Below, in pieces: positions 1,909 through 63,784 of a stretch of DNA of 64,000 bases. The stretch's first letter is position 1. Each line of letters opens with the position of its first letter. This stretch comes from Patagioenas fasciata. Lineage: Eukaryota; Chordata; Aves; Columbiformes; Columbidae. The notes beneath the pieces were generated by a model. It had not been told where the DNA came from. It searched no databases and saw only the letters and a list, made by a program, of their open reading frames with translations. The stretch lies in NCBI RefSeq assembly GCF_037038585.1, contig NC_092524.1, forward strand, positions 71,262,552-71,326,551. Reading direction: 5' to 3'. Position numbers and translations under genes: made by a program.

Positions 1909-3432
1909 AGCAAGTAAACTCAAATAGAATATATACTGTTACCCTCAACATCCTCTATCACCTTTTCCAGCACTAGAGCTGTAAGCACAAGAGGTAGCAA
2001 GTGGCTGGTGGATTTGGGGGGAAAAAAGAGTAATTCTGCAGTGGTTTTTGTCTATCTTTCCCCTGCAGAGTTCAAGAACAGTGAATATGGCTCTGTCCGC
2101 TGAGGAGGACCTTCCTCAGAGCCCCCGCACTGAAAGGCGGCAGCGTCATTGACGCAGCCATAGGAGACGCAGTGGCAGTAACCGCGTCCCCGCAGGGTCT
2201 GCCGGCGGAGGCAATGGCCCCTTTGGTCACCGGGGCCCTGGCGCTCTGCAGCTGTCATTTCCAGTGGGAATGAGGTGATCAATAAGAAAAAGAAAAGGGA
2301 GAGTGAACTGCATTAAGAAAAAAATTAAGATTTCTGAAAAAAAACCCACATACAGAGAAAACTTATTTTGCTTGAGCTTTCAAATCAATGTTCTTCGACG
2401 TCTCCTACAGAATCAAGCCATCTGGCTTTTTCAAAACAGTTATTAGCGTGCATAATGTTATAGGTTTTTCAAGTTTAACAAGTACAGTGAATCAAAAAGA
2501 AAAACAGAGAGTTGTTATCTGAAATTACATGTATAACGTGTGTGCATAATCGGAGGGTAACCCACCACGAGCTGCACCTCAAGCGCAGGGCATTCTTCAG
2601 GGAAAGCGTTTCCATCCATCTCTCGTATACAAATGCACTTCAGAGAAAAGAACCACCATGGTCTACAGGGTCTCCTTCCCGGCCCCGCTGCTCCTTGTCC
2701 CTGCAGTAACCGCGGCAGCGGGGTCTCCTACCCAAAGCGCTTTGCACCCCAGGAGAGGAGAAGGATCACGTTCTTTCTGAACAGGGCTCTCACCTTGGCC
2801 AGGCCTCCGAGATTTTCACCTTCAGACTGTGCTTTGTGATTTCACACCGACCCCGCGCAGGTTATTTGTGTATTTACGTGTGTGTTTCACGGTGGTTTTG
2901 GGAGCCCGCAGGGCGGGGCTGGCACCTGTCACACTGGGCAGGGGGTCATCTGGCCCCAAATCCACCAGGACGCTCAGAACGGGCTTGTTCCTTTTAACTA
3001 AGAAAACCATTAAGGCTGTTTGCCTTAAGCTCTGGTTAATGGACTGCACGGATTATTTATTTATTTTTAAATGAACACACTTTATTTCCCCAAAGTGCTG
3101 CTGTTGACTTTCTTTCCACGCTGCCATCTGGCTCCCCTGCCTCAAAGAGAGAGATAGGTGGCGTAGTAATAAATAAACAAACAAACAAATAAATAAAAAT
3201 GCCTGATCTTTTGCAATTGGAGCATCACCCAAACATTTGTATATGATTGCGTTAAATTCAATAATTGTCTTGCTAATGCTTTTGAAATAAACAAGCACAA
3301 TTGTGCTAACAGCCTGCAGCACTGATGGAGAATTACAGAATCAATCTCCTCGTGCGAGGGTCTCTCCCCGCGGCTCCGCTCTGCGCTGCCGGAGCCTCCC
3401 TCTCCGCAGGAGCGCCATTACGGGCCGGGGAC
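1909..3432. other. Unique sequence, no gene seen
   Basis: Mostly AT-rich, with a short AAAC/AAAT run at about 3165-3200. No coding potential is recognised. Confidence 0.6.
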
Positions 3433-4280
3433 GCTCTCATTGCCTTCTGCAGAGCGCGGCTGCTCGGGGCCAGAGCCGCAGCCTGGCTCTCCTTGCCTTC
3501 TGCAGAGCGCGGCTGCTCGGGCCCAGAGCCGCAGCCTGGCTCTCATTGCCTTCTGCAGAGCGCGGCTGCTCGGGCCCAGAGCCGCAGCCTGGCTCTCCTT
3601 GCCTTCTGCAGAGCGCGGCTGCTCGGGCCCAGAGCCGCAGCCTGGCTCTCATTGCCTTCTGCAGAGCGCGGCTGCTCGGGCCCAGAGCCGCAGCCTGGCT
3701 CTCCTTGCCTTCTGCAGAGCGCGGCTGCTCGGGGCCAGAGCTGCAGCCTGGCTCTCATTGCCTTCTGCAGAGCGCGGCTGCTCGGGGCTCAGAGCCGCAG
3801 CCTGGCTCTCATTGCCTTCTGCAGAGCGCGGCTGCTCGGGGCTCAGAGCTGCAGCCTGGCTCTCATTGCCTTCTGCAGAGCGCGGCTGCTCGGGCCCAGA
3901 GCCGCAGCCTGGCTCTCATTGCCTTCTGCAGAGCGCGGCTGCTCGGGCCCAGAGCCGCAGCCTGGCTCTCCTTGCCTTCTGCAGAGCGCGGCTGCTCGGG
4001 GCCAGAGCTGCAGCCTGGCTCTCATTGCCTTCTGCAGAGCGCGGCTGCTCGGGGCTCAGAGCCGCAGCCTGGCTCTCATTGCCTTCTGCAGAGCGCGGCT
4101 GCTCGGGGCTCAGAGCTGCAGCCTGGCTCTCATTGCCTTCTGCAGAGCGCGGCTGCTCGGGCCCAGAGCCGCAGCCTGGCTCTCATTGCCTTCTGCAGAG
4201 CGCGGCTGCTCGGGGCCCAGAGCCGCAGCCTGGCTCTCATTGCCTTCTGCAGAGCGCGGCTGCTCGGGGCCCAGAGCGGC
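3433..4280. repeat. 53/54-bp minisatellite, about 16 copies
   Basis: The unit starts GCTCTCATTGCCTTCTGCAG and contains GAGCGCGGCTGCTCGGG. Copies vary at CATTG/CCTTG, at GCCCAG/GCCAG/GCTCAG and at CCGCAG/CTGCAG. By variant pattern, five consecutive units (3645-3911) are repeated exactly as the next five (3912-4178). The unit has no stop codon in any plus frame, so all three plus frames stay open across the array; the long frames here are not evidence of a gene. Confidence 0.96.
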
Positions 4281-6546
4281 GGCCCCGTTGTCGCTCCTTT
4301 GCTTCCTCCCTTTCCCCTTCGCACAGTCTCTCAGCCTCCCGCACCACATGGCACTCCGCTTTCTGGACAAGATGAGGTGGTTTCTAGGCCGGGAGGGAGA
4401 TGTTCAGCAGATCATTGCTGGGGCTGTGCCGTGGCCAAACCCCGGTGCTGAGGACGAGGGATGCCGCCCAATGCTGGGGGTCTGTGACCCCACAGAAACA
4501 TGGACAAGGCACCCACTCACACCATAAAGATGTGATGATGCTGCCAACGGGCCCAGGCAGCGTCTGGCCAACACACAAATCAGTCGCACACTTCGAGATA
4601 TCACCGAGAAATCACTTCATTTCAGAATGATAGCTTACTGCCTTTCCCACCCCAGGACAGGAGCGATAAAGCATGGAAAAAGTAGGTTACAGACAAGGAT
4701 AATTGTTCTAAAGTATTTGGAAAAACACAGATCCTTCAGGTAATTGCACAGCAGAAGGAAGCCTGCAATCCGTCATTCTCCTTCGAGCTGCAGAAGTTTT
4801 GCACATTTTCACTTCCAGTGTCAGGAAGACAGGTAATTTTGTGTAAGATACCTGTGAAACCAATTAGGACCACACGGGGCATCAAAACGTACAGCAAGTG
4901 ATATTGGAGTTGCTGACAGGCACTTTCTCTAAAAACAATGCTTATAACTGGCTGGGGCGCAAGGACAAGGGGACACAAGGACCATCCTTTCCCTCCCTGA
5001 AGGCTGAGGAAGCCCGGTGTCTGATCCAGCCCTTGGCCCCTTGGGGACGCAGCGGTGCCGCGGGCGCTCAGCGCAGAGCCCTCCTGGCGCTCCTGCTCGG
5101 GCTGCACAGCCCCGGGGGCTTTAGGGAGCCCACCGACCAGAAACACAGCAATTTTCATTTCTTCTGCTCTTTATCAGCAGGACGAGTAGGCAAAGCGTCC
5201 TTGGCTCCTGCCCCCCAGGGGTGCCATCCCGTGAGCCCCGTGTTCCCAGACACGGGTCCTCAGCTGCTGCGGACCCCCAGCACTGCCTCTGGGGCCACAT
5301 CCTTCCACGGACCCCAGCAGTCCTGCGAGTTAATGTGCTGCCCGCCGAGAGCACCGGCTTCTTTAATCTGGTGCAAATCTTTCTTGGGGAAAAGACATTT
5401 CACGGATGAGGACATTTCAGAACAAGATAAATAAAGCAAGCACTTAACTGATGATATAAGCTGTATATCCAGAAAGGACTTGTGTCTCAGGAGATGCCAA
5501 GCACTTTTGGTATCTGAACGAGTGATCTAACGAAGCTGGTGACCCTGGGACCGGTTGTGGGGCTGGAAGAACATTGTGTCCCATCCCCACAGGTGCCGCA
5601 GAGACTCTGCCCAGGATCCAGGCTGCTGCTGAGGAGCCCAAAGCTCCATGAGATCTTCTCATAAATCCAGCCCCTCAATATTGGCACTGCAAATAAAATA
5701 ATGACAGCAAAAGTAAAACAAAAATTGCCCTGTTACTTTGCTTTTCTGTAAGGTAGGCAAACAAAGCTTTAAAGGTTGTCGGAGGCATCATAAAGTCCTC
5801 TTCAACATGACTGACAACTCGCCTGGGAACACCGCTTCCTAAATCATTAGGATGAGATTGCTCTACCAACCTTCGCTCAGCAGCTCTGGAGCTGCCTCTG
5901 TTCTCTGCGGCAATGGGGAGCTGTATTTTCAACAGAGAAGCCAGGAACACACATCTCAAAGATTTATAGCAAAAGAGATCAGGGCAAATGCTTCAACGTG
6001 CTCATTTGATATGTGAGTGTGTTGCTTCTTGCTCTAATCGTGGTCTCAGTAAGGGGAAACTCTCATTCCTTGGTCTGCAACAGTTCAAAGAGGGGTTGGT
6101 TGTTAATCTTTTGCATTTCAAATCTAATATTCCTGGTATTTTCTATTGATGAAATAAAGTCAAGCACAGTGAACTAGATCAGCCTTAACTGCCCCAATAG
6201 CCTAACACGGAGTTGCTGGCCTGCAAAAGAACAACACCAGCTGTCCGAGCCTATAAACTACCCTTAAAAGAGCTGCTGAATATTCCTACTGGGACTTTCT
6301 GGGTTTGTCTTCTTTTTATACTGGTGGCTATGAATCCTCCCCGCACACGCGCTGTTTGTGCACAGATCCTTAGACGTACCCGCTGAGACTCACGGACTGG
6401 GGTCCCTGCATCTCGACTTAATCTTTTTTTATGACTGACAAAATTGGGTTTACACTCCTGAAATGATCTCATCTCTGTTCCTGGCCAGCCTGGAAGGCCA
6501 TGGGGTGGCAGACCAGCGGTAGCGCGTCCCATGGCAATGGAGATGA
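4281..6546. other. Unique sequence, no gene seen
   Basis: Alternates moderate GC (4950-5350) with AT-rich parts. Open frames up to 178 codons show no known domain. Confidence 0.6.
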
Positions 6547-36300: not shown

Positions 36301-38471
36301 AGGGGCATCAGGCTGGGGACCTGGGAAACGGGCAAGCGTTCCCTCCTTGTCCTCACACCTTTTGCCACTCAGACCAGAGACCTGCAGCAATGCTGTTGTG
36401 TCACAAATGTCCCTCCCAGGAGCCAGACCCCCTCCAGCCTCAGAAATCATCTTTGCAGATACCCTAAGAGCAAACAAATACTTATAAATTCCTCTACAAG
36501 CATAAGGCATTATTTTGGAATAAGTGAGTTTCCCTGTTACATCCTGACTTACCGTGTACAGGAGCACAAGCCGCACCTGAAGAGCTGATCGAGAGGAAGA
36601 GCAGGCAGCTGGCCCCGGTTCCATCGGGGTGTCTGCGGTCGGCAATTGCGGAGTCAGCAGCGGGCGGTTACCCGGTGAGCTCACCCGTGCCGGGCGGCCC
36701 CACACGCCTCTCCTAACAGCTCAGGTGGGCGAACGGGGTGCTGGACGCCCTGGCTGTGTCTGAAGCAACCTGGGGAGGCTGACCTGGTAGAAGATGTGCT
36801 CCTCCGAACAGCCCCTCTCTTCCCAGGCACCGGTTCTCTGTATACGCCCTTTAAATGCAAACTGCAACTTCAGAGCAGCTCTCCGGGGGCCCCTCTGCTG
36901 AAACGTTTGCATGAAAAGCCACACAGCGCTGGACTTTCTCTGAGAACTGAGGAGGGCGCTTCACTCAGGTACCCGCTGGAGACAAAACTCCTGTGCACAG
37001 GTAAACCGAGCCCAGGGGCTCCCCACGGTGCAGCCCAACGGCACTGCACCAGGCACAGGCGGGGTTTTAATGGACAGTCTGGCATGCTGTCTCTTCCTGG
37101 TAATCCAAAGAACACTGAAGGAAAGGCTACCAGTTTCTCTTACAAGAATGTTAAACTCATAATTTTCACAATGTTATTATGGTATGAACCTACCAAATGG
37201 CCCCAGCACCAAGTCATAGAGCTGGTCTTGCCAAGAGCGGGCAGGTACTTGTTCAGTCACTGTGGTTTATCATTCTTCAATCTGTGCTTTAGCTAATACA
37301 CTTCTAAAAATGAGCAAAGTTTCTTCTAAATTCTAACTTTAAAAGACATTATTTATGCTTGGTCTGTTTTCCATACGCCCAACGGCACCCAGAGGCCCAT
37401 TACAGGAACACCCCAAACAGCCTGTGCCAGCGACCACCCGGGCCGAGACAAGACCCCCGTTCAACGACACCCGAAAGCGGCAGCTGCCGGATCCAGGTCT
37501 GCAGGAGCACCGGCAGCTCCCCGGCGCTGCCCCACCCGCGCTGCTGTCTCCCTGCGCCGGCACAGCTCGGCCGATGGCCGCGCGCGTCGCCGAACAACCG
37601 CCGCTGCTTTCTGCTCACGCAAACAGCGACGAGACACCAGCACGGAACGCACAGAAGCAATGCCACGCATCTGAATCAGGCACAGCCAAGTTGTTTATTA
37701 TTCTTTAAACCAAGCTGCAAAATTTCAAACTCACTTAGACACAACTTCAGCTTAAGTTTCTGCAGAACGGCTATGCTGCATGTCAGGGCAAAGGCACCAG
37801 CCGGGGATGCGCAGGGTGCTCGTTCATCTCCAGTTCAATAGTGATATCTCCAAGGCACCAGTTGCTGCTGCCAGCAGCTCTAGGAAAGTCCCCACCAACC
37901 ACCTGAGCGCGGTCTCGCCATTGCCAGACCTGCCTTTTCTGCCCCGTTTATTTCACTCCCTGTCCTGGGCACGAACAGTCACCCCACAAACAGCCCAGCG
38001 CGGGGTTCCCACAGGTTGTCACTTCTCCCAGGACCAGAACCCTGTTGCTCCCCACATCTCCCCGTGCTTGCCTCGCTGTGCCATCCCTTGCACCCTTGGC
38101 AGATACGAACAGATCCGTGTGTCAAAGAGCTCGGTGCACTCTGATCACAGGCTTCACATCAATACATGCGAAAAGTTTTAAAGGATTTACAAAACACGGG
38201 TTCTGTGCCCGTGTCTGTTCCTCACACGTACTCTGCTTTGCACCTGTTTTCCCGTCAAAAACCCTCCAACAAAAACAGCGTAAAAGAAAACCCCAAATGA
38301 CAAGATGAGTTTCCTAAGCTCTTAGTCTTTACATAACACAAATCAGATAGTGGGAATGATTATTCATACCCTTAAAACATGTTGTATTTTGAAAACTTCC
38401 TTCACAGAAATGCCAACAAGAAGTGGGGAGGCGGTGAAGGAAAGGAAAAAGCTCAGACAAGAGAAGTGCCC
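33381..38471. other. Unique sequence, no gene seen
   Basis: Contains the longest strongly AT-rich unique stretch of the window (33640-34560). CpG-richer patches lie at 35480-35780 and 37380-37630. Confidence 0.55.
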
Positions 38472-39600
38472 CCGTGGGAAGGACAGCTGCAGCTCCAACC
38501 CCTGCACGCCCCCTTTTCCGTGGGGATGTATTCCACGGACAGCTGCCGCTCCAACCCCTGCACGCCCCCTTTTCCGTGGGGATGTATTCCACGGACAGCT
38601 GCCGCTCCAACCCCTGCACGCCCCCTTTTCCGTGGTGATGTATTCCACGGACAACTGCCGCTCCAACCCCTGCACGCCCCCTTTTCCGTGGTGATGTATT
38701 CCACGGACAGCTGCCGCTCCAGCCCCTGCACGTCCCCTTTTCCGTGGTGATGTATTCCACGGACAACTGCCGCTCCAACCCCTGCACGTCCCCTTTTCCG
38801 TGGTGATGTATTCCGTGGACAGCTGCCGCTCCAACCCCTGCACGCCCCCTTTTCCGTGGGGATGTATTCCACGGACAGCTGCCGCTCCAACCCCTGCACG
38901 CCCCCTTTTCCGTGGTGATGTATTCCACGGACAGCTGCCGCTCCAACCCCTGCACGCCCCCTTTTCCGTGGTGATGTATTCCGTGGACAGCTGCCGCTCC
39001 AGCCCCTGCACGCCCCCTTTTCCGTGGTGATGTATTCCACGGACAGCTGCCGCTCCAGCCCCTGCACGCCCCCTTTTCCGTGGGGATGTATTCCACGGAC
39101 AGCTGCCGCTCCAGCCCCTGCACGCCCCCTTTTCCGTGGGGATGTATTCCACGGACAGCTGCCGCTCCAGCCCCTGCACGTCCCCTTTTCCGTGGGGATG
39201 TATTCCACGGACAGCTGCCGCTCCAACCCCTGCACGCCCCCTTTTCCGTGGGGATGTATTCCACGGACAGCTGCCGCTCCAACCCCTGCACGTCCCCTTT
39301 TCCGTGGTGATGTATTCCACGGACAGCTGCCGCTCCAACCCCTGCACGTCCCCTTTTCCGTGGTGATGTATTCCACGGACAGCTGCCGCTCCAACCCCTG
39401 CACGCCCCCTTTTCCGTGGTGATGTATTCCACGGACAGCTGCCGCTCCAACCCCTGCACGTCCCCTTTTCCGTGGTGATGTATTCCACGGACAGCTGCCG
39501 CTCCAACCCCTGCACGCCCCCTTTTCCGTGGGGATGTATTCCACGGACAGCTGCCGCTCCAACCCCTGCACGCCCCCTTTTCCGTGGTGATGTATTCCGT
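38472..39600. repeat. 56-bp minisatellite, about 20 copies, with hairpin-forming units
   Basis: The largest array in the window. The unit contains CAGCTGCCGCTCCAACCCCT, GCACGCCCCCTTTT and TCCGTGGTGATGTATTCCA. Most copies hold TCCGTGG, nine bases, then CCACGGA, a seven-base inverted repeat; copies with GTGGG instead of GTGGT keep it too. A few copies (near 38813, 38980 and 39596) read TTCCGTGGA or end as TTCCGTG, losing the right arm. Copies differ at AACCCC/AGCCCC, ACGCCC/ACGTCC and GTGGG/GTGGT. The unit length is not a multiple of three and stops are rare, so all minus frames are open for over 1 kb; these are not genes. Confidence 0.97.
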
Positions 39601-40856
39601 GTGTGTGTACAATCATGTAAAAACACTGCTTTCACATGTTTGCAAAATAACGCCAGTGAAGGGGTTGCAGTGCCGAACCAAAGCCGCCGTGGGCTGCAGG
39701 CGCGCCCTGGGTGCTGCCCACGGGGCTCCGCGCTCCCGCCAGCCCCGCCAGCTCGGAACGTCACCAACCAGCCAGGGAGTCACAGTCACTGTGCTACCCA
39801 GAGAAGTTCAGGAGACACCCCAGGCGGATGACACAGTAATGATAATCACTGCCTTACATTAGCAGAAACAAAGGAGGAATGCAATAAGGATTTCTGGTAG
39901 TATATCTCCATTGAATGGTCACTTTCCTTGTCTAAAAATCTCAGTTCAAATAACAGCAGAGAGTTTTCTCTCTAATAAATTCAAGGACAATTAGCTGGAA
40001 TCATCCAGTGAATCCTAAGATACCTCAGAGGAAGTGTTATGGCTTGCCATAAAAATATATACACTTCATTTGTGACACTCAAAATCTTGTTACGGGCAAA
40101 AGGGAGTGCACAGCCGAGGTGCCAGGAATTTACTGCTAGTATAATTAACATTTTACCAGCCTAATCAAAATAGGAGAAGCAGTTATTATTAGTCCAGTTA
40201 CAACTGCACTAACACACTCCAAATTATCTGATCATTATTTAAAAATTCATTAAAAATACCGCTAAAACCTTTTTAGGTCAATTCCCCTGCGTTCCTGTGA
40301 GGGGAACTCCCCAGCGCCGGGGCTCAGCTCCCACTGGGACCCCGGGCACCCGAGCTCCTCCGCATCCCACTAACGGGTGGGTCACACCAACCAGCAGAGC
40401 TCCTCGTTAGCACCAGCAAGTAATTAACAAAACACAAGCTACAGCAGAAACAAACCCAGGCAACAGGCTCCCCACTGCGTGCAGTCGCTGCCGGTGCCAC
40501 GGCGCTGGCACCGTCCCACAGCGCTCAGAGCCGGCACGGGATCCGTACGGAGCGCACGGCACTCCTTCAGCAAGGGCAGAATTTCAACTAATGGGATATG
40601 GGTGAGTTAGTTTGGTGAAGAAAAACACCAAGAAAAGCTGAGCCATTATAACATCCTCGGGAAGGACACTGGGGAGGAGCAGGGACGAGTGGGGCACCGG
40701 CTGGGAGCACCAGGTGGCCCAGAGCTGCGACACCACCCCGTGCCACCACTGCTGTACCGTGGTGCTGGAAGCCAAGAGCAGTTTCCCCCTCCCTGCTGGG
40801 TCTGTTCTCAGCAGCGACCCCTGGAAGGGGCTGAACCCCCAACACACAGCAGCAGG
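39601..40856. other. Unique sequence, no gene seen
   Basis: AT-rich from 39840 to 40270, then GC-moderate. Confidence 0.6.
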
Positions 40857-54689: not shown

Positions 54690-57026
54690 AAAGAGACAAA
54701 ACAGCGACAGTGAGGGGAGAAGGAGCGGGATCCGACCCTTCCCCGCGGCCGGGGCCGAGCTGCGGCGGGGCCAGCGGCACTGGGAGGTGCTGGGCAGGAC
54801 CCGGCTGAGCCCGGCACCGCGCCGGCAGCACCGGGAGCTGCCCGCGGCAGAACCTGCCTCCAGCCCCGACACCAGCGCTGCGGGGCACAGCCAAGGGAGG
54901 AAGAGTCAATGGCACCCAGCATCCCAGCCTGCGGCCGGCGAGCCACCAGCCAGCCTCCCCAGCTGGAAGAGCTGGCACAGCAGTGCTGCTGCTGGGGGAA
55001 AAGCAAACTAACAAATAACTCCCAAAACCCCAAAACAGAAGCAGCAAAGTTCATTGTTCCAGAATCAGAGAGTTTTCCAGTTTCTAGATTTCCTTCTGCC
55101 CTCATTGAGGCCAAGCATTTTTCATGGCAGGGCCTTGAACCCTTTGCATAGTTTCAGAGGTCTGCACAGAACTGAAACACCAGAACGGAGCCGTGGGTGG
55201 GTGCGAATCCAGCACTCGCCTTGGTGAGGTTCACATGCAAGAGAAAACCACTGCAGAGAGAATGTGCAGATGTTTAACTGCGTTGCCCCGCGGTCCCGCT
55301 CAGTTTCCATCGATCACGGCACAGCACACAGGCTGGGGACAGCTGCGCCGCCTCGCCGCGGTCCCACTGCGCCTGGCGCTCGCTGCCACCCCGGTGCGGC
55401 TCCACTTACCTGAGGGAATGCAAAGGTGCAGTTGTGGTATGTAAATGCGAACTAGGCACCGTGTTTAAATTCATCCCCGGTCTGCTGCGGGTCGCAGCTC
55501 CGGCTGCCCACACACTGGCCGTGCCAAGCGCGGGCTCACGTCTGCCGGCCCCGCCGCGACAGCCCGGGCAGGGGGCAGGGGCAGCCTGGTCCCAGGAGCG
55601 GGGACACCGTGGGCCGGGCCACAGCTCTTACTGGTTCTCCTCATTTCCCTCTCCCAGTGGAAATTTCCCCTGCAGAGACTGCGTGGCTCACACGCAAACC
55701 ACAGTGGGTGCTCCGGAGAAGCAATCTGGTACCTATATGTAAAACTGGCAGTCAGGAGGAAAACCAGCTCAGCACCAACCCAGGCGCAATGGCTTGTTCT
55801 CGACTTTCACCTTTATAAAAGGCAACTTTCAAAAGTGCAGTGCTCGAAAGAACCTGAGGTGACACGGCTTGTACCAGCACAACAAAACAGCAGCTTATTC
55901 TGTTCATTCCCTACAAAGCTTGCAAGGTGGGGTCTCTGCAGCCAGCAACGTGCTACGTTTGCTGTTTTCCCTTTTTAGTTTCCTTCCTTGCAAGCTAAGC
56001 TTCCTCCTTTCTGCGGCAGCAGCCTTCGCACCCAGCTCCTGTGAATAAATCAATTACACTAAAAGTCTACAGTCAGCAAGGCCAGTAGGACTTGCCTTTT
56101 ATTGGTCTGGTATTACTGATGCCGGGGTGTCAGTGCTTTAACCCGCACCCCTTCAGACCCACTAATGCTTTTGTTTCGTGGACATCTGCGCTGTTGTGAA
56201 AGTGAGACCACAGCTGCATTCAAACCGAGCCAGAACAGGGCACATTTTCTTATTACAGAGCTGATGTAACCGGACAGTCATGGAAGGGAAGACGCGACCA
56301 CTGCCCGCGCAGGGTGGGCAGGTGCCCGGCGGGAGACACGCTTCCTGTAAGCGGGACCTATTAGCACTGCCATGGTTTGCTTCTTTTAAACCAGAACTTT
56401 GCCCAACATTAGGATTACTAAATTACCAGGGAAAAGCATGGTGTGATTTCATGGCTGTTGTTATTGCTGCTTTAGGAGAGCAATAGCACATCCCTGGTTG
56501 CAAGCAGCACCCTAGAACAGGACAGTAAATGTTGCTGAGCCATTGCAATGCTGACAGATGTTGCCACTCTGCGAGCGGTACCTCGGAGACTGCAGCGCCT
56601 CTCAATTAATACGAGGGAAGCGATAGTGAGTGATAGCAGCTGTGACCATTACTTCTGCTGGCTGAATCAATTACTGGGGGAAGCATCGCAGCGCCTCTGT
56701 GTGCAGGGGCCCTGGTGGCTCTGGGTACAGTTTCACGGCAGCACAGGAATGGCTACACTGCACTTTCTCGAGGGCGCACAGCGAGCACCAGCTGTGGCAG
56801 GACTGTCGGCTGGCGCAGCTCGGTGTCACCGCGCCAGCGCGTGTCGCTCAGCGCCAGGCACGCAAGGAGTTACTGGGAGACGCGTTGTGCAGTGCCAAAG
56901 CAGCAACCAGCCGGGCTCTCGCGGTCCCGGGAGGCAGGAGTGACCCGCGCTGCTGGCAGCAAGCGTCCAGCCTCCACAGCTCCGCCGCCGGCAGGGACAA
57001 GCCAGACCTGGGGCAGCACGGCAGGA
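54690..57026. other. Unique intronic sequence upstream of the candidate terminal exon
   Basis: GC-rich near the acceptor (54720-54960), then AT-leaning. No further exon is recognised. Confidence 0.5.
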
Positions 57027-57409
57027 GCACCCACAGTAGTGCAGGCAGCACCCACGGTAGTGCAGGCAGCACCCACAGCGGTGCAGGCAGAACCCATAAT
57101 AGTGCAGTCAGCACCCACAGTAGTGAAGGCAGCACCCATAATAGTGCAGGCAGCACCCATAGTAGTGCAGGCAGCACCCATGGTGGTGCAGGCAGCACCC
57201 ATAATAGTGCAGGCAGCACCTGTGGTAGTGCAGGCAGCGCCCACAGTAGTGCAGGCAGCGCCCACAGCAGTGCAGGCAGCACCCACAGCAGTGCAGGCAG
57301 CGCCCACAGTAGTGCAGGCAGCGCCCACAGCAGTGCAGGCAGCGCCCACAGCAGTGCAGGCAGCACCCACAGCAGTGCAGGCAGCACCAACGGCAGTGCA
57401 GGCAGCAGG
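57027..57409. repeat. 21-bp minisatellite, 18 copies, in the presumed LRFN5 last intron
   Basis: The unit is close to ACAGTAGTGCAGGCAGCACC plus one base. The 21-base period gives heptapeptide repeats in every open frame, including plus-strand frames of 239 and 299 codons and a minus-strand frame of 230. Nothing outside the array in these frames looks like a known protein. Confidence 0.96.
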
Positions 57410-58975
57410 GGCTGCTGAGCCAACACATGGGAACACCCCAGCAGAAATAACCCACATTGGCACCCAGAGCGGAGCAGTACCATATATTCACTGTATAGAA
57501 CATGCCCAGAACACAAGTGGAAAGGCAGCACAGAAAACAACTAACACAAAAACTTTTCACCCAACAAAGCCCTTGCTTCTCCATCCGGATATTGTTTGTA
57601 TCAGCCCTCTTTAACACAACGCGTACACTCAGATTAAAGGATGAGGAAAAGGTGTAAGAGGAAGCGTGTGCCAGCAATTTTAATAAGAGTAAACAAATTT
57701 GTGTAGTAGTTTCGCCTCTTCCAGTGCTTGTGAAAACAGACACCATCTCACGGCTGAAAGCTCAGTTAACGTGTTTTGGAGCATCCCCTCAAGGAGCAGC
57801 AGGTGGAGCCAGGATGGCAACGCCCGGCCGGCCCCGGACACATCGCACCCCCGGCACTGCCCTGCGCACCAGCACCCACCGCCCACACGGGACACTGCTC
57901 GGGCTTGTTGAACCCACATTTCATTTCGGAAGCACCAGAAAACGTCGCAGTATTGCACTATGAACACAAACACACCAGCGCTATTCTGATCAAGGAGCAT
58001 TGCAGCACTTCCTGCTTCTAACTGTTGGCAACCTCTGGTTTTGCAGAACAGAAAGGACAGAGAATTTCCTCCTTCACAAGGCTTCCCACACTTTGACTGA
58101 ACCAGGCCTGCATGAAACGCAGGGTCCCGCTGCAGTGGCCGCAGTGGAAGCGGCAGGTTCTGTGCCCGGCGCGCTCCCAAGGGACGCTCCTCTCTGCCCA
58201 AGAGACGAACCCTCTGATACCCAGGTTTAACTGCTCCTACGCCATTAGCAGAGCACTAAATCAAACGCAGCGACATATGGTCCTCCTAAGCTGCTCATAC
58301 AGATGCGCTGTGGACAGAACACTCAGCTTCAGTGTTTAGAAAATGATTCCTTTGAGTAAAAAATTAAAAATATAAAAATAAAACTCCCTAAATCCCCAAA
58401 AGATGTGAATATTTTAGCACTTTCACAAAACATTAGACACATTTACGTCCAATTTTAGACAACATATAAAGCTTTTTCATTGGATGTTTCTAAAACGCAC
58501 AACTAAAACAAACACTGTTAGCGCAATCTCCACGCCCCAGCGCCACGGGAAGGTCGCGCGCGGCTCCCAGCTCCTGCCCGCGGCACTGGCGGCCGCGTCC
58601 TGCGCCTGGCACCGCTCACACGGCGCTGCCCGACCCGCACCGCGCCAACCGCTGCTTCCTGTGCAGACAGCCCCTCAGGAGGAACGAGGACTTACAGACA
58701 CACCTGAGGGACTTGTTTTTGACTCTTCCAGCAGGAAGGTATTCTGAGGCTTCATTTCCTTTTCGGTCTCTGCGTTTCTCAGGGGAAGCAAAAAAACTTA
58801 AAAAAGAGAGACCCTCTTGTTTTTGTGTCCTTCATGCCACCTTCACACAGACTCTGCTCTTCCACAACAGGCAGTAAAACCGCTGAGAGTGACCCAGGGT
58901 GGCCGAGAGCAACAGGGTCACCTTGTGCATGTCCCCCCAAGAGGCAGAGACACAGGGCTGCCAGGGATGCAGCTG
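57410..58975. other. Unique intronic sequence between two arrays
   Basis: AT-leaning, with a CpG-rich patch at 58530-58660. Confidence 0.5.
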
Positions 58976-60290: not shown

Positions 60291-60296
60291 TTTATT
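60291..60296 (-). terminator. Candidate poly(A) signal AATAAA (distal, read-through form)
   Basis: The minus strand reads AAATAAAAT about 575 bases after the ESTV stop, at the edge where AT-rich sequence gives way to GC-rich DNA. Confidence 0.4.
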
Positions 60297-60602: not shown

Positions 60603-60608
60603 TTTATT
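60603..60608 (-). terminator. Candidate poly(A) signal AATAAA (proximal, read-through form)
   Basis: The minus strand reads AAAATAAAAA inside an A-rich tract about 260 bases after the ESTV stop. Low-complexity context lowers confidence. Confidence 0.3.
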
Positions 60609-60869: not shown

Positions 60870-61794
60870 TCACACAGTGCTTTCCAATATCCACTCAGAA
60901 CTGGAGAAAGTTGCTTTTCCACTATCCACACCAGAGCTGTCTGAGTGGACTAGCATCCCGTTCATGGACATGCTCCGCTTGGAGCGCAGTCCGCCCGCGG
61001 CCCGGGACTCCAGCAGCTCGCCGCCCAGGGACAGCCGGCGCTTGGCTCGGGACGCGTCGGCCGGCAAAGTGAGGAACTTACTTGGCTTTGATTGTGCTCT
61101 TTTGTACGTGGGGGCCCCTGTGAGAGAGTCGGGGGGACGGTTAGCTAACTGCAGGGCAGTGGAGTTATTTCTGTTAGTGTTCTGGGACTCGATGCTGCTG
61201 ACAGCTTCGCTCTGCAGCTCGCTGCTTGGCTTTGGCCCCGGCTTTCGCTTCTGCTTCTGGGGCGCAGAAGCGCTGGAAGTCCAGGTGGGAGGCAAAGCGG
61301 AGGTAGAGGTGGCCGAGTCCTGGCTGGGGCCGCTCTCCGGCGGCTGCGTCGCGCCGTCGCTGGCAGCCTTGCAGCACTGGACGCCCTCCTCGTGCCCCAC
61401 AGCCTGCTTGGACACCGACTGCGACAGCACCCCGCTGCAGCCCTGGCTCTGCGCCCCGTTCGTCTGCGAGTACACGTTGCTGACCTTGGTGGCCTTCTGC
61501 TGCCCGTTGTTGTTACACACCTTGTAGCGGATCATGAGGATGATGATGAACACGAGCACGGAGGCCACGATGATCCCACCAATGATGATAATCATGGTCC
61601 CGCCCAGGAACTGGGACTGCATGAAGTGGCAGCGCACGTAGTCCTGCTCGGTGGTGAACTGCGTGCAGCCCACCACCCTGGTGGCCGTTAGCGAGGTGAT
61701 CCCGTCGTCATAGATGGCCAGGACGCACAGGTCGTACACAGTCCCAGCGGCCAGGTTGTTGACCAGGAAGGTTTTGCTTGTGGGAGGTATCATT
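60870..61794 (-). CDS. LRFN5: LRFN5 second coding exon: FN3 end, transmembrane helix, cytoplasmic tail with ESTV end
   Basis: The acceptor CAG lies just before 61794 and is preceded by a pyrimidine tract. The exon encodes the rest of the fibronectin domain, the isoleucine-rich transmembrane helix and the cytoplasmic tail. Residues 464-700 correspond to the common LRFN5 tail. Residues 701-770 lie beyond an internal splice donor at 61081. They contain a basophilic kinase-type RRLS motif at 715-718, a serine/methionine motif SMSMNGML near 737-744, and a terminal WILESTV that resembles, from memory, the ends of LRFN1 and LRFN2. The stop is TGA at 60872-60870. Confidence 0.93.
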
Positions 61795-63784
61795 CTGGGG
61801 AGAAGGAAAGGAGCGTGAGTGACCCGGCAGAGCCGCGGCTGCCGCGGTGAGCACCGCCAGGGCTGGGGTCCCCGCTGTGCCGCCCCGCAGGGCTGCTCAC
61901 CGTGCCCGCAGTGCCTGCCCTGCCTCGGGCTGGCAGCAGTCGACACCTGACGCCCCAAATGGCAGAGCCCCCTGTGAGAGCGACCGCGTGAGAAACCTCA
62001 CAGAAATTACCAAGCAAAGAGAGTTTACAACAGTGTGATAGCTGTGACAGCGGCTGCACGGCACCTCTGTGCTCCAGCACGGACACACCAGAAGTGCTGC
62101 GAGGAGCGTGTTTAACCAACACCTTTACTCTGTGTTTTCACAAAGCCGAGAGTGCTCAGATCCATTTAACTCATCTAACTTTACAACCTTTCTGCCAATC
62201 AGATTAGTTCAGAGGATTAGAGGTCCATCTGGATTATCTAAAAATAACATCACTCAACCTAATTTCCTTATTTGCGAGCAGGAAACTGCAGGAGCGTTTC
62301 CGAGGCTCCCAGCGCTGCTGCGGGGCCGGGCTGTGCGCGGGGCTGCGGGGCGGGCGGCACGGCAGCGCCCCGCGGAGCCGGGATGGGCGGCCTTACCTGT
62401 AAACAAGGGAGTCATCGTAAGTACCGTTGTACTGGATTTGGAACATACGGATCCCAGGTATATTCCTCTGAAAATTGAATTTCAGCAGAACGGTAGAGGA
62501 TGTTGCTTCCGCAACAACCACCTTCTTATCCTGGCTGACTTTAGTATCCCCGTTGCTACTGCTCGCGTTGGAGCCCGACTTGGTGGAAGTGGAGATGTCC
62601 GAGGAGCCGGGGTCGGGCTCGTGGATGTGGTTCGTGCTGTTCAGCAAGTGGGGGAGTTTGATTATGTGCAGGTCCACCGTCTGCGTGGCCTCCCCCGCCG
62701 GATTGGAAGCAATGCAGGTGAAGGAGCCGGTGTCCTTCACCGTCGTTATAAGGATGTCGAGCGTCCCATTGTCGTAGACCACCGACCTCGTCGCATTTGA
62801 AATCAGTTTGCCCTCAGGTGAAATCCAATGAATGGCCGGCTCGGGGTCCCCGCGGGCCTTGCAGCGCAGGGCTGCCCGCTGCCCCTCCAGCACCCGCAGC
62901 TCGTGGGTGTGCCGGGTGATGAGGGGCGGCTCGCACAGGAACTCCTCCTCGGGGATGGACCAGAAGTACCGGCCCGACAGCAGCGTGGGAGAAGCGCAGG
63001 TCTCCAGGTCGTCCTCCCGCGAGAGGCGCCGCAGCCACAAAAGCTCACAGTTGCAATGCAAAGGGTTCCCACCAAAGCTCAACGCGAAGGTTGAGGGGCT
63101 GATAATTCCTGAGGTTGCCAGTACCTGAGCTCGCTGGAAGAGAGGATCAGGCGGTAGCTTCTGCAGTTTGTTAGACGTGACGTCCAACCTGGTCATCTTG
63201 TGGAGGTGGGAGAAGGTCCCCTTAGGAATATGGTCGATCATGTTGTGGTCCAGACTGAGAGTGTGCAAACTGACCATCTTCTCCACTGCATCCCAGGGGA
63301 TGGTTTCCAGATTGTTGTAAGACAAATCCAATTCCTCAAGAGCTAAAACATCATCAAAAGCTGTGGAAGAAATTAAAGTCAGCTGGTTGTTGTTAAGTAT
63401 CAAGTGGTGAAGATTGGAGAGTCCACTGAACATGTCGTTGGTGATCTTAGTCAATCGGTTGCTGTTCAAATGCAAAGCCCGCAAATTGCGCAAGTCGGCA
63501 AACGCGTGAGGTGTAATAAAACTGATTGTATTCCTGGACAGCGTCAGGTCCACCAGGCTGGTCATGTTGGCAAAGTCTTTCCTTTTAATGTTTGTAACAA
63601 AGTTGTCTGCCAGCCGCAACTCCACGGTCCTCCTGTCGATGTTGGGAGGAACAAACAAGAGCCCTTTCTTGGCACAAAGGGTGGCAAGGTTCGGAGACAA
63701 AATCTGACAGACGCAGCGCTTCGGGCAGATCTGCGCTCTCACCGCTACGCCAATGCACAGCAGAAACAAAAGCAGTTTTTCCAT
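60870..63784 (-). CDS. LRFN5: LRFN5 (SALM5), synaptic adhesion-like molecule; two coding exons, PDZ-tailed form
   Basis: Joining 63784-62397 to 61794-60870 gives a 770-residue type I membrane protein. The family acts at synapses, where SALM5 binds presynaptic LAR-type receptor phosphatases; that role is family knowledge. Seen in the sequence: a signal peptide (about 1-17), a cysteine-rich LRRNT (20-45), seven leucine-rich repeats (about 46-218), an LRRCT (240-286), an Ig domain with Cys308 and Cys357, a fibronectin III domain (about 420-507), a transmembrane helix (about 529-550) and a cytoplasmic tail. N-glycosylation sequons lie at 73, 330, 339, 382, 406 and 453. The ectodomain is nearly identical to mammalian LRFN5 as I remember it. 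The start is in strong context (A at -3, G at +4) and precedes a clean signal peptide. The tail ends in ESTV, whereas mammalian SALM5 (about 719 residues) is described as lacking a PDZ ligand. A splice donor after residue 700 explains the difference. Confidence 0.96.
61076..61081 (-). promoter_or_regulatory. LRFN5: Internal 5' splice site GTAAGT in LRFN5 coding exon 2
   Basis: The minus strand reads AAG CCA A followed by GTAAGT, a perfect core donor. Splicing here ends the exon after residue 700 with one base of codon 701 (phase 1). In mammalian LRFN5, as I remember it, the protein continues Lys-Pro-Asn at this point, and an Asn codon begins with A, so the donor position matches. The site therefore decides between a read-through tail ending ESTV and a spliced tail. 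Confidence 0.8.
61795..62396 (-). other. LRFN5 intron between the two coding exons
   Basis: A 602-bp GT-AG intron in phase 2. The first 120 bases after the donor are very GC-rich, and the middle (about 62000-62280) is AT-rich. I see no repeat or other gene in it. Confidence 0.9.
62397..63784 (-). CDS. LRFN5: LRFN5 first coding exon: signal peptide, LRRs, Ig, start of FN3
   Basis: This exon encodes residues 1-462 and the first two bases of codon 463. It holds the whole LRR and Ig region and the first half of the fibronectin III domain. It ends in codons for LVY followed by AG, with donor GTAAGG beginning at 62396. The next exon supplies the third base of an arginine codon, so the intron is phase 2. 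Putting nearly the whole ectodomain in one large exon fits what I know of the LRFN family. Confidence 0.95.

Follow-up and report, generated by a model that had tools for sequence, protein, structure and literature searches.

We show that the gene encoding LRFN5 (SALM5), a synapse-building protein, carries in Patagioenas fasciata an intact, in-frame C-terminal tail that resembles the tail of LRFN2 well beyond shuffled sequences and ends in ESTV, a class I PDZ ligand. That LRFN5 carries an inherited, LRFN2-like PDZ tail is well supported by these comparisons. We consider it probable (about 0.75) that the second coding exon is the normal terminal exon of the gene, that LRFN5 is mainly a PDZ-ligand protein in this animal, and that the short tail of mammals is derived. 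The gene lies on the minus strand of the window, that is, the whole stretch of 64,000 nucleotides analysed here.

The LRFN5 gene and its C-terminal tail

The first coding exon (62397..63784, minus strand) encodes the signal peptide, the LRR and Ig domains and the start of a putative FN3 domain, and is directly followed by a donor, CAG/GTAAGG, on the same strand. The second (60870..61794, minus strand) encodes the remainder of the putative FN3 domain, a putative transmembrane segment, the cytoplasmic tail and the stop codon. Joining the two (63784-62397 and 61794-60870) gives a protein of 770 residues with the C-terminus WILESTV. When the ectodomain was compared with PDB chains, LRFN5 was the best match (804 bits), with LRFN1 at 520 bits. 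Pfam placed LRR_8 and I-set above the cut-off and fn3 below it (E=0.0042, 17.7 bits, for a cut-off of 25), and a hydrophobic stretch, the putative transmembrane segment, was seen by eye in the translation of the second exon. The LRR and Ig domains, which match those of LRFN5, place the protein in the LRFN/SALM family, as its LRFN5 member.

The preliminary description had drawn attention to a GTAAGT at 61081-61076 beyond which the frame continues for 70 codons to WILESTV, and the joined exons confirmed this. The hexamer (61076..61081, minus strand), a candidate splice site, occupies codons 701-703 (Ser-Lys-Phe); its context is CAA/GTAAGT, in phase 1 within codon 701, AGT. The tail proper, similar to that of LRFN2, comprises residues 701-770 (60873..61082, minus strand, 70 residues). 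It contains a best conserved block at residues 734-770 (60873..60983, minus strand) and closes with the ESTV codons (60873..60884, minus strand), an end also found in LRFN2 and at the LRFN1-like locus of this genome, followed by the stop TGA (60872-60870, minus strand). The motifs after the donor, and then ESTV, stand in the translation in the order previously described. With a class I ligand inside a conserved tail, the predicted protein would belong with the PDZ-ligand SALMs. Downstream, an AATAAA at 60291..60296 may serve as the poly(A) signal of an unspliced transcript, and another at 60603..60608, within an A-rich run, is a weaker candidate, both on the minus strand and both by consensus only. 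The inverted repeats just 3' of the stop codon are A/T runs. Elsewhere in the window, positions 3325-4527, 38329-39767 and 56848-57614 contain long open reading frames on one or two strands that look minisatellite-like by eye.

Comparison of the tail with LRFN2

The tail was compared with that of LRFN2 (SALM1) from the same genome, a locus (L002) identified as LRFN2 because the published Lrfn2 peptide matches its end (18/23 identical). In a single BLASTP comparison with the LRFN2 exon, the last 37 residues of LRFN5 were identical at 20 positions (E=1e-12). Local alignment of the two tails gave a score of 128, for a maximum of 65 among 5000 shuffles, which bears out the earlier claim that the tail is like that of LRFN2; without the last block the score was 32, and 86/5000 shuffles were equal or better. 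In both tests the LRFN2 tail had been trimmed manually to begin at its SKF. We regard the homology of the last block to LRFN2 as firm and that of the SKF...RRLS part as likely. When the exons are aligned at full length, without this trimming, the SKF of LRFN2 falls opposite LRFN5 residues 698-700, not 701-703, and the alignment register at the donor is uncertain. Both tails are encoded by a second coding exon and share the order SKF...KRSxSxNGML...TFxSSEWxxESTV. In contrast, SKF is encoded as TCCAAGTTT in LRFN2, whose exon contains neither GTAAGT nor GTGAGT, and the tail counted from SKF measures 79 residues there and 70 in LRFN5. The C-terminus of LRFN2 binds PSD-95 and SNX27, according to the accessible parts of the literature.

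Nonsynonymous and synonymous differences were also counted over the aligned tail, against LRFN2 of the same genome. The proportion of nonsynonymous differences (pN) was 0.379 over the whole tail (69 codons) and 0.268 over the last block (37 codons), lower than the 0.505 found over the cytoplasmic segment that precedes the donor (128 codons); these are point values, compared without a significance test. Residues 464-560 gave 0.191 (96 aligned codons), and pS ranged from 0.68 to 0.83 across the segments. Because its pN is lower, the stretch after the donor appears at least as protein-like as the coding sequence before it. Before the donor, G+C at the three codon positions was 0.51/0.50/0.83; the tail gave 0.54/0.56/0.73, and the 600 bases beyond the stop gave 0.31/0.38/0.37. 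The shift in composition coincides with the stop codon rather than with the donor.

We also simulated decay of the tail by substitutions only, at three assumed rates. At 0.6 changes per site the frame remained open in 2251/20000 copies, and 96/20000 retained, besides the open frame, both the stop and a class I terminus. The corresponding counts were 5098 and 936 of 20000 at 0.3 changes per site, and 1676 and 42 of 20000 at 0.8. An open frame over 70 codons is by itself weak evidence for a coding tail; hence the case for a real tail rests on the similarity to LRFN2.

The mammalian tail and the donor-like hexamer

The published view of SALM5 is different. A PDZ ligand is attributed to SALM1-3, but not to SALM4 and SALM5, in the accessible parts of PMC5895706, PMC4881023 and PMC4974644, and likewise in those of PMC5773591, PMC8481232 and PMC7360590; partial sources also report binding of mammalian SALM1-3 to PSD-95 or SNX27. 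The portion of PMC8296521 available assigns the PDZ motif to LRFN1, 2 and 4, and there, when five human LRFN tails were assayed against SNX27, only LRFN1, 2 and 4 bound. Among the matches listed, the parts accessible of the LRFN5/SALM5 literature contained no description of a PDZ-ended LRFN5; bird annotations may hold one. To our knowledge, the division into PDZ-ligand and ligand-free SALMs was built on mammals.

Human LRFN5 is given as 719 residues, encoded by three exons with the tail in the last and no extra 3' coding exon (PMC2094703, in the part available); this arrangement, if exact, speaks against an intron at the donor codon. An Lrfn5 antiserum was raised against (C)TNVDQNVQETQRLESI, a peptide that we infer to be the mouse Lrfn5 C-terminus with a leading C added for coupling. 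Another mouse SALM5 antigen is described as residues 551-746 (PMC4974644, in its accessible part), which fits neither a 719- nor a 770-residue form. The gene of the window is alike to mammalian LRFN5 in that LRFN5 chains are its top PDB matches and in its cytoplasmic part before the donor, where 103/140 residues up to Lys-Pro are identical to a provisional human sequence; just after, identity with the same provisional sequence is 5/20. The two differ in that the mammalian protein is described without a PDZ ligand, and in length (719 residues in human, 770 here). The antigen peptide, the 719-residue length and the provisional human sequence together sustain the earlier claim that the mammalian tail departs at the donor codon. 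As to what it departs into, the published Lrfn5 peptide is identical to the read-through at 3/16 positions (5553/50000 shuffles as good), and the provisional human 20-residue tail, in register, at 5/20 (162/50000 shuffles as good). These results disagree, and the published letters weigh more. Since the published peptide is only 3/16 identical, the sameness of the mammalian tail and the read-through is not demonstrated; a relation between them is possible, as the provisional human tail suggests.

Under the favoured explanation, the second coding exon, used as the normal terminal exon, would yield a 770-residue SALM5 with an inherited class I ligand, ESTV, and the tail would have been retained as translated protein. 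Like SALM1-3, the SALM5 made from transcripts ending near 60291 would then be able to bind PDZ domains of the PSD-95 type and of SNX27. The short tail of mammals, which lacks a PDZ ligand, would be a derived replacement that starts at the same codon by way of the GTAAGT donor. Should a bird LRFN5 have an intact PDZ tail, the rule that separates SALM1-3 from SALM4/5 would apply only within certain lineages. Work on SALM5 in the neurons of chicks or songbirds would then deal with a protein coupled to scaffolds, and the mammalian loss of the tail would be an event open to dating and testing. LRFN5 has been implicated in autism (PMC4881023, in the part accessible).

The preliminary description had gone further, proposing that an ancestral PDZ tail is kept and that use of the donor turns it off. 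The first part stands, with a kept tail like that of LRFN2. The second, a regulated switch in which a composite terminal exon gives the PDZ tail by polyadenylation near 60291 and a short tail by splicing at 61081, at a ratio set by neurons, we hold to be rather unlikely. In its favour, CAA/GTAAGT coincides with the codon at which the mammalian protein diverges from this one (the human letters being provisional, the 719 residues published), an AATAAA lies 3' of the stop, and a short-tail peptide has served as Lrfn5 antigen. The hexamer, however, is at chance level. Under the gene's own codon use, GTAAGT would arise at this Ser-Lys with a probability of 0.064; synonymous resampling of the exon produced it somewhere in 1517/20000 cases, and the window contains 15 copies for 15.84 expected. 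GTAAGT alone is thus not beyond chance and proves nothing, because the Ser-Lys-Phe codons can account for it; it is notable because of its position where the mammalian protein departs. In addition, the base that usually precedes a donor is G, and here it is A. Judging from the sequence, this animal may use the donor, if only at a low level. A minor spliced form would fit the favoured explanation as well as the switch, and because the two readings overlap their odds need not total one.

The switch also needs a partner exon for the short tail. We slid the published Lrfn5 peptide without gaps over 224 kb in six frames, of which 221 kb lie downstream of LRFN5, and found no exon like it in those 221 kb. 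On the LRFN5 strand the highest score was 27, and the overall maximum of 29 fell in a repeat of the opposite strand, for a self score of 78; the power to exceed 29 was 0.95 at 9/16 identical residues, 0.68 at 8/16 and 0.30 at 7/16. The provisional human tail gave chance-level matches only, both when scanned over the window (two inspected) and by tblastn over the window plus 160 kb (4 of the 12 matches listed inspected). A genome-wide 26-residue protein query returned no candidates, though a query this short may escape detection. One exact degenerate pattern was found 0 times in the genome, a result that counts against the switch but says little, because the pattern required an Ile that is absent from the published peptide. 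A search by pattern for stray vertebrate DNA in genome and viral contig collections matched 58 and 7 stretches, with 0 confirmed. A partner exon of other sequence, split or farther away is possible.

Slightly less likely again is an amniote-wide version, in which the PDZ tail lies behind the donor in a composite terminal exon in mammals too, and splicing or early polyadenylation switches SALM5 between scaffold-linked and unlinked forms. The change of IgM from secreted to membrane form is a composite terminal exon switch of this kind, and would be the mechanism here if the donor at 61081 competes with polyadenylation near 60291. The LRFN5 case differs in that no second exon for such a switch was found in the 221 kb downstream of the gene. 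GluN1, likewise a membrane protein of the synapse, offers a further parallel, since certain of its splice variants have a C-terminal PDZ ligand (STVV), as described in partial sources; the splice variants are described there, whereas splicing of LRFN5 in this genome is only possible.

Improbable, in our judgement, is that there is no splicing at all and that mammals have this very stretch as their tail, altered by substitutions or by a frameshift to an early stop. The three exons given for human LRFN5 (PMC2094703, in part) and the weak in-register resemblance of the provisional human tail (162/50000) would suit this, but the published peptide bears no such resemblance to the read-through (5553/50000), and identity falls from 103/140 to 5/20 across GTAAGT, again with provisional human letters. 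That the tail is an untranslated intron, merely coding-like, and that SALM5 ends here in a short tail of mammalian type would agree with the donor-like site at 61081 and with the seven partially available reports from PMC5895706 to PMC8296521 cited above, which state or imply a ligand-free SALM5, but is very improbable given the similarity to LRFN2, a pN below that of the coding part before the donor, the coding-like composition as far as the stop, an intact ESTV followed by the stop, and a short-tail exon not found in 221 kb downstream.

The other LRFN genes of the genome

Beyond LRFN5, three LRFN genes were recovered, each represented by a pair of exon loci (L002/L008, L003/L009 and L004/L010) that we assign to one gene each from their proximity. 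The nearest PDB chain to L010 was LRFN1 (437.6 bits, with LRFN5 at 374.1). L008 and L009 matched LRFN5 best (556 and 526 bits, with LRFN1 at 505 and 519), far below the 804 bits of the gene in the window. L003, which we take to be LRFN3-like, has a C-terminus without a PDZ ligand. The genome thus yielded four LRFN genes (LRFN5, LRFN2, LRFN3-like and LRFN1-like), LRFN4 being absent among these without a dedicated search. The rat protein 'FIGLER 8', with its 57% identity and 1q21 position, is presumably LRFN1. This protein of 766 residues had been considered as a PDZ-tailed LRFN5 and was rejected on that identity, which is to human, and on 1q21 (PMC2094703, in the part available). The same partial source places chicken LRFN5, there also 'FIGLER 8', on chromosome 5 (PMC2094703).

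The C-terminus of the LRFN1-like L004 is SFGSTHWMLESTV, with the ESTV end. At 1820-1850 of this locus, between the transmembrane part and an SVCSQTNG motif, a poly-C run marks a shift of the open frame to another register, either an assembly error or a real frameshift. At 2070-2250, the ESTV-coding stretch gives way to a series of copies of its final bases, GAGCACCGTGTGA. In L002, donor-like sites occur in GGTAAGCAAGTAAGT at about 2470-2500, shortly 3' of the LRFN2 stop.
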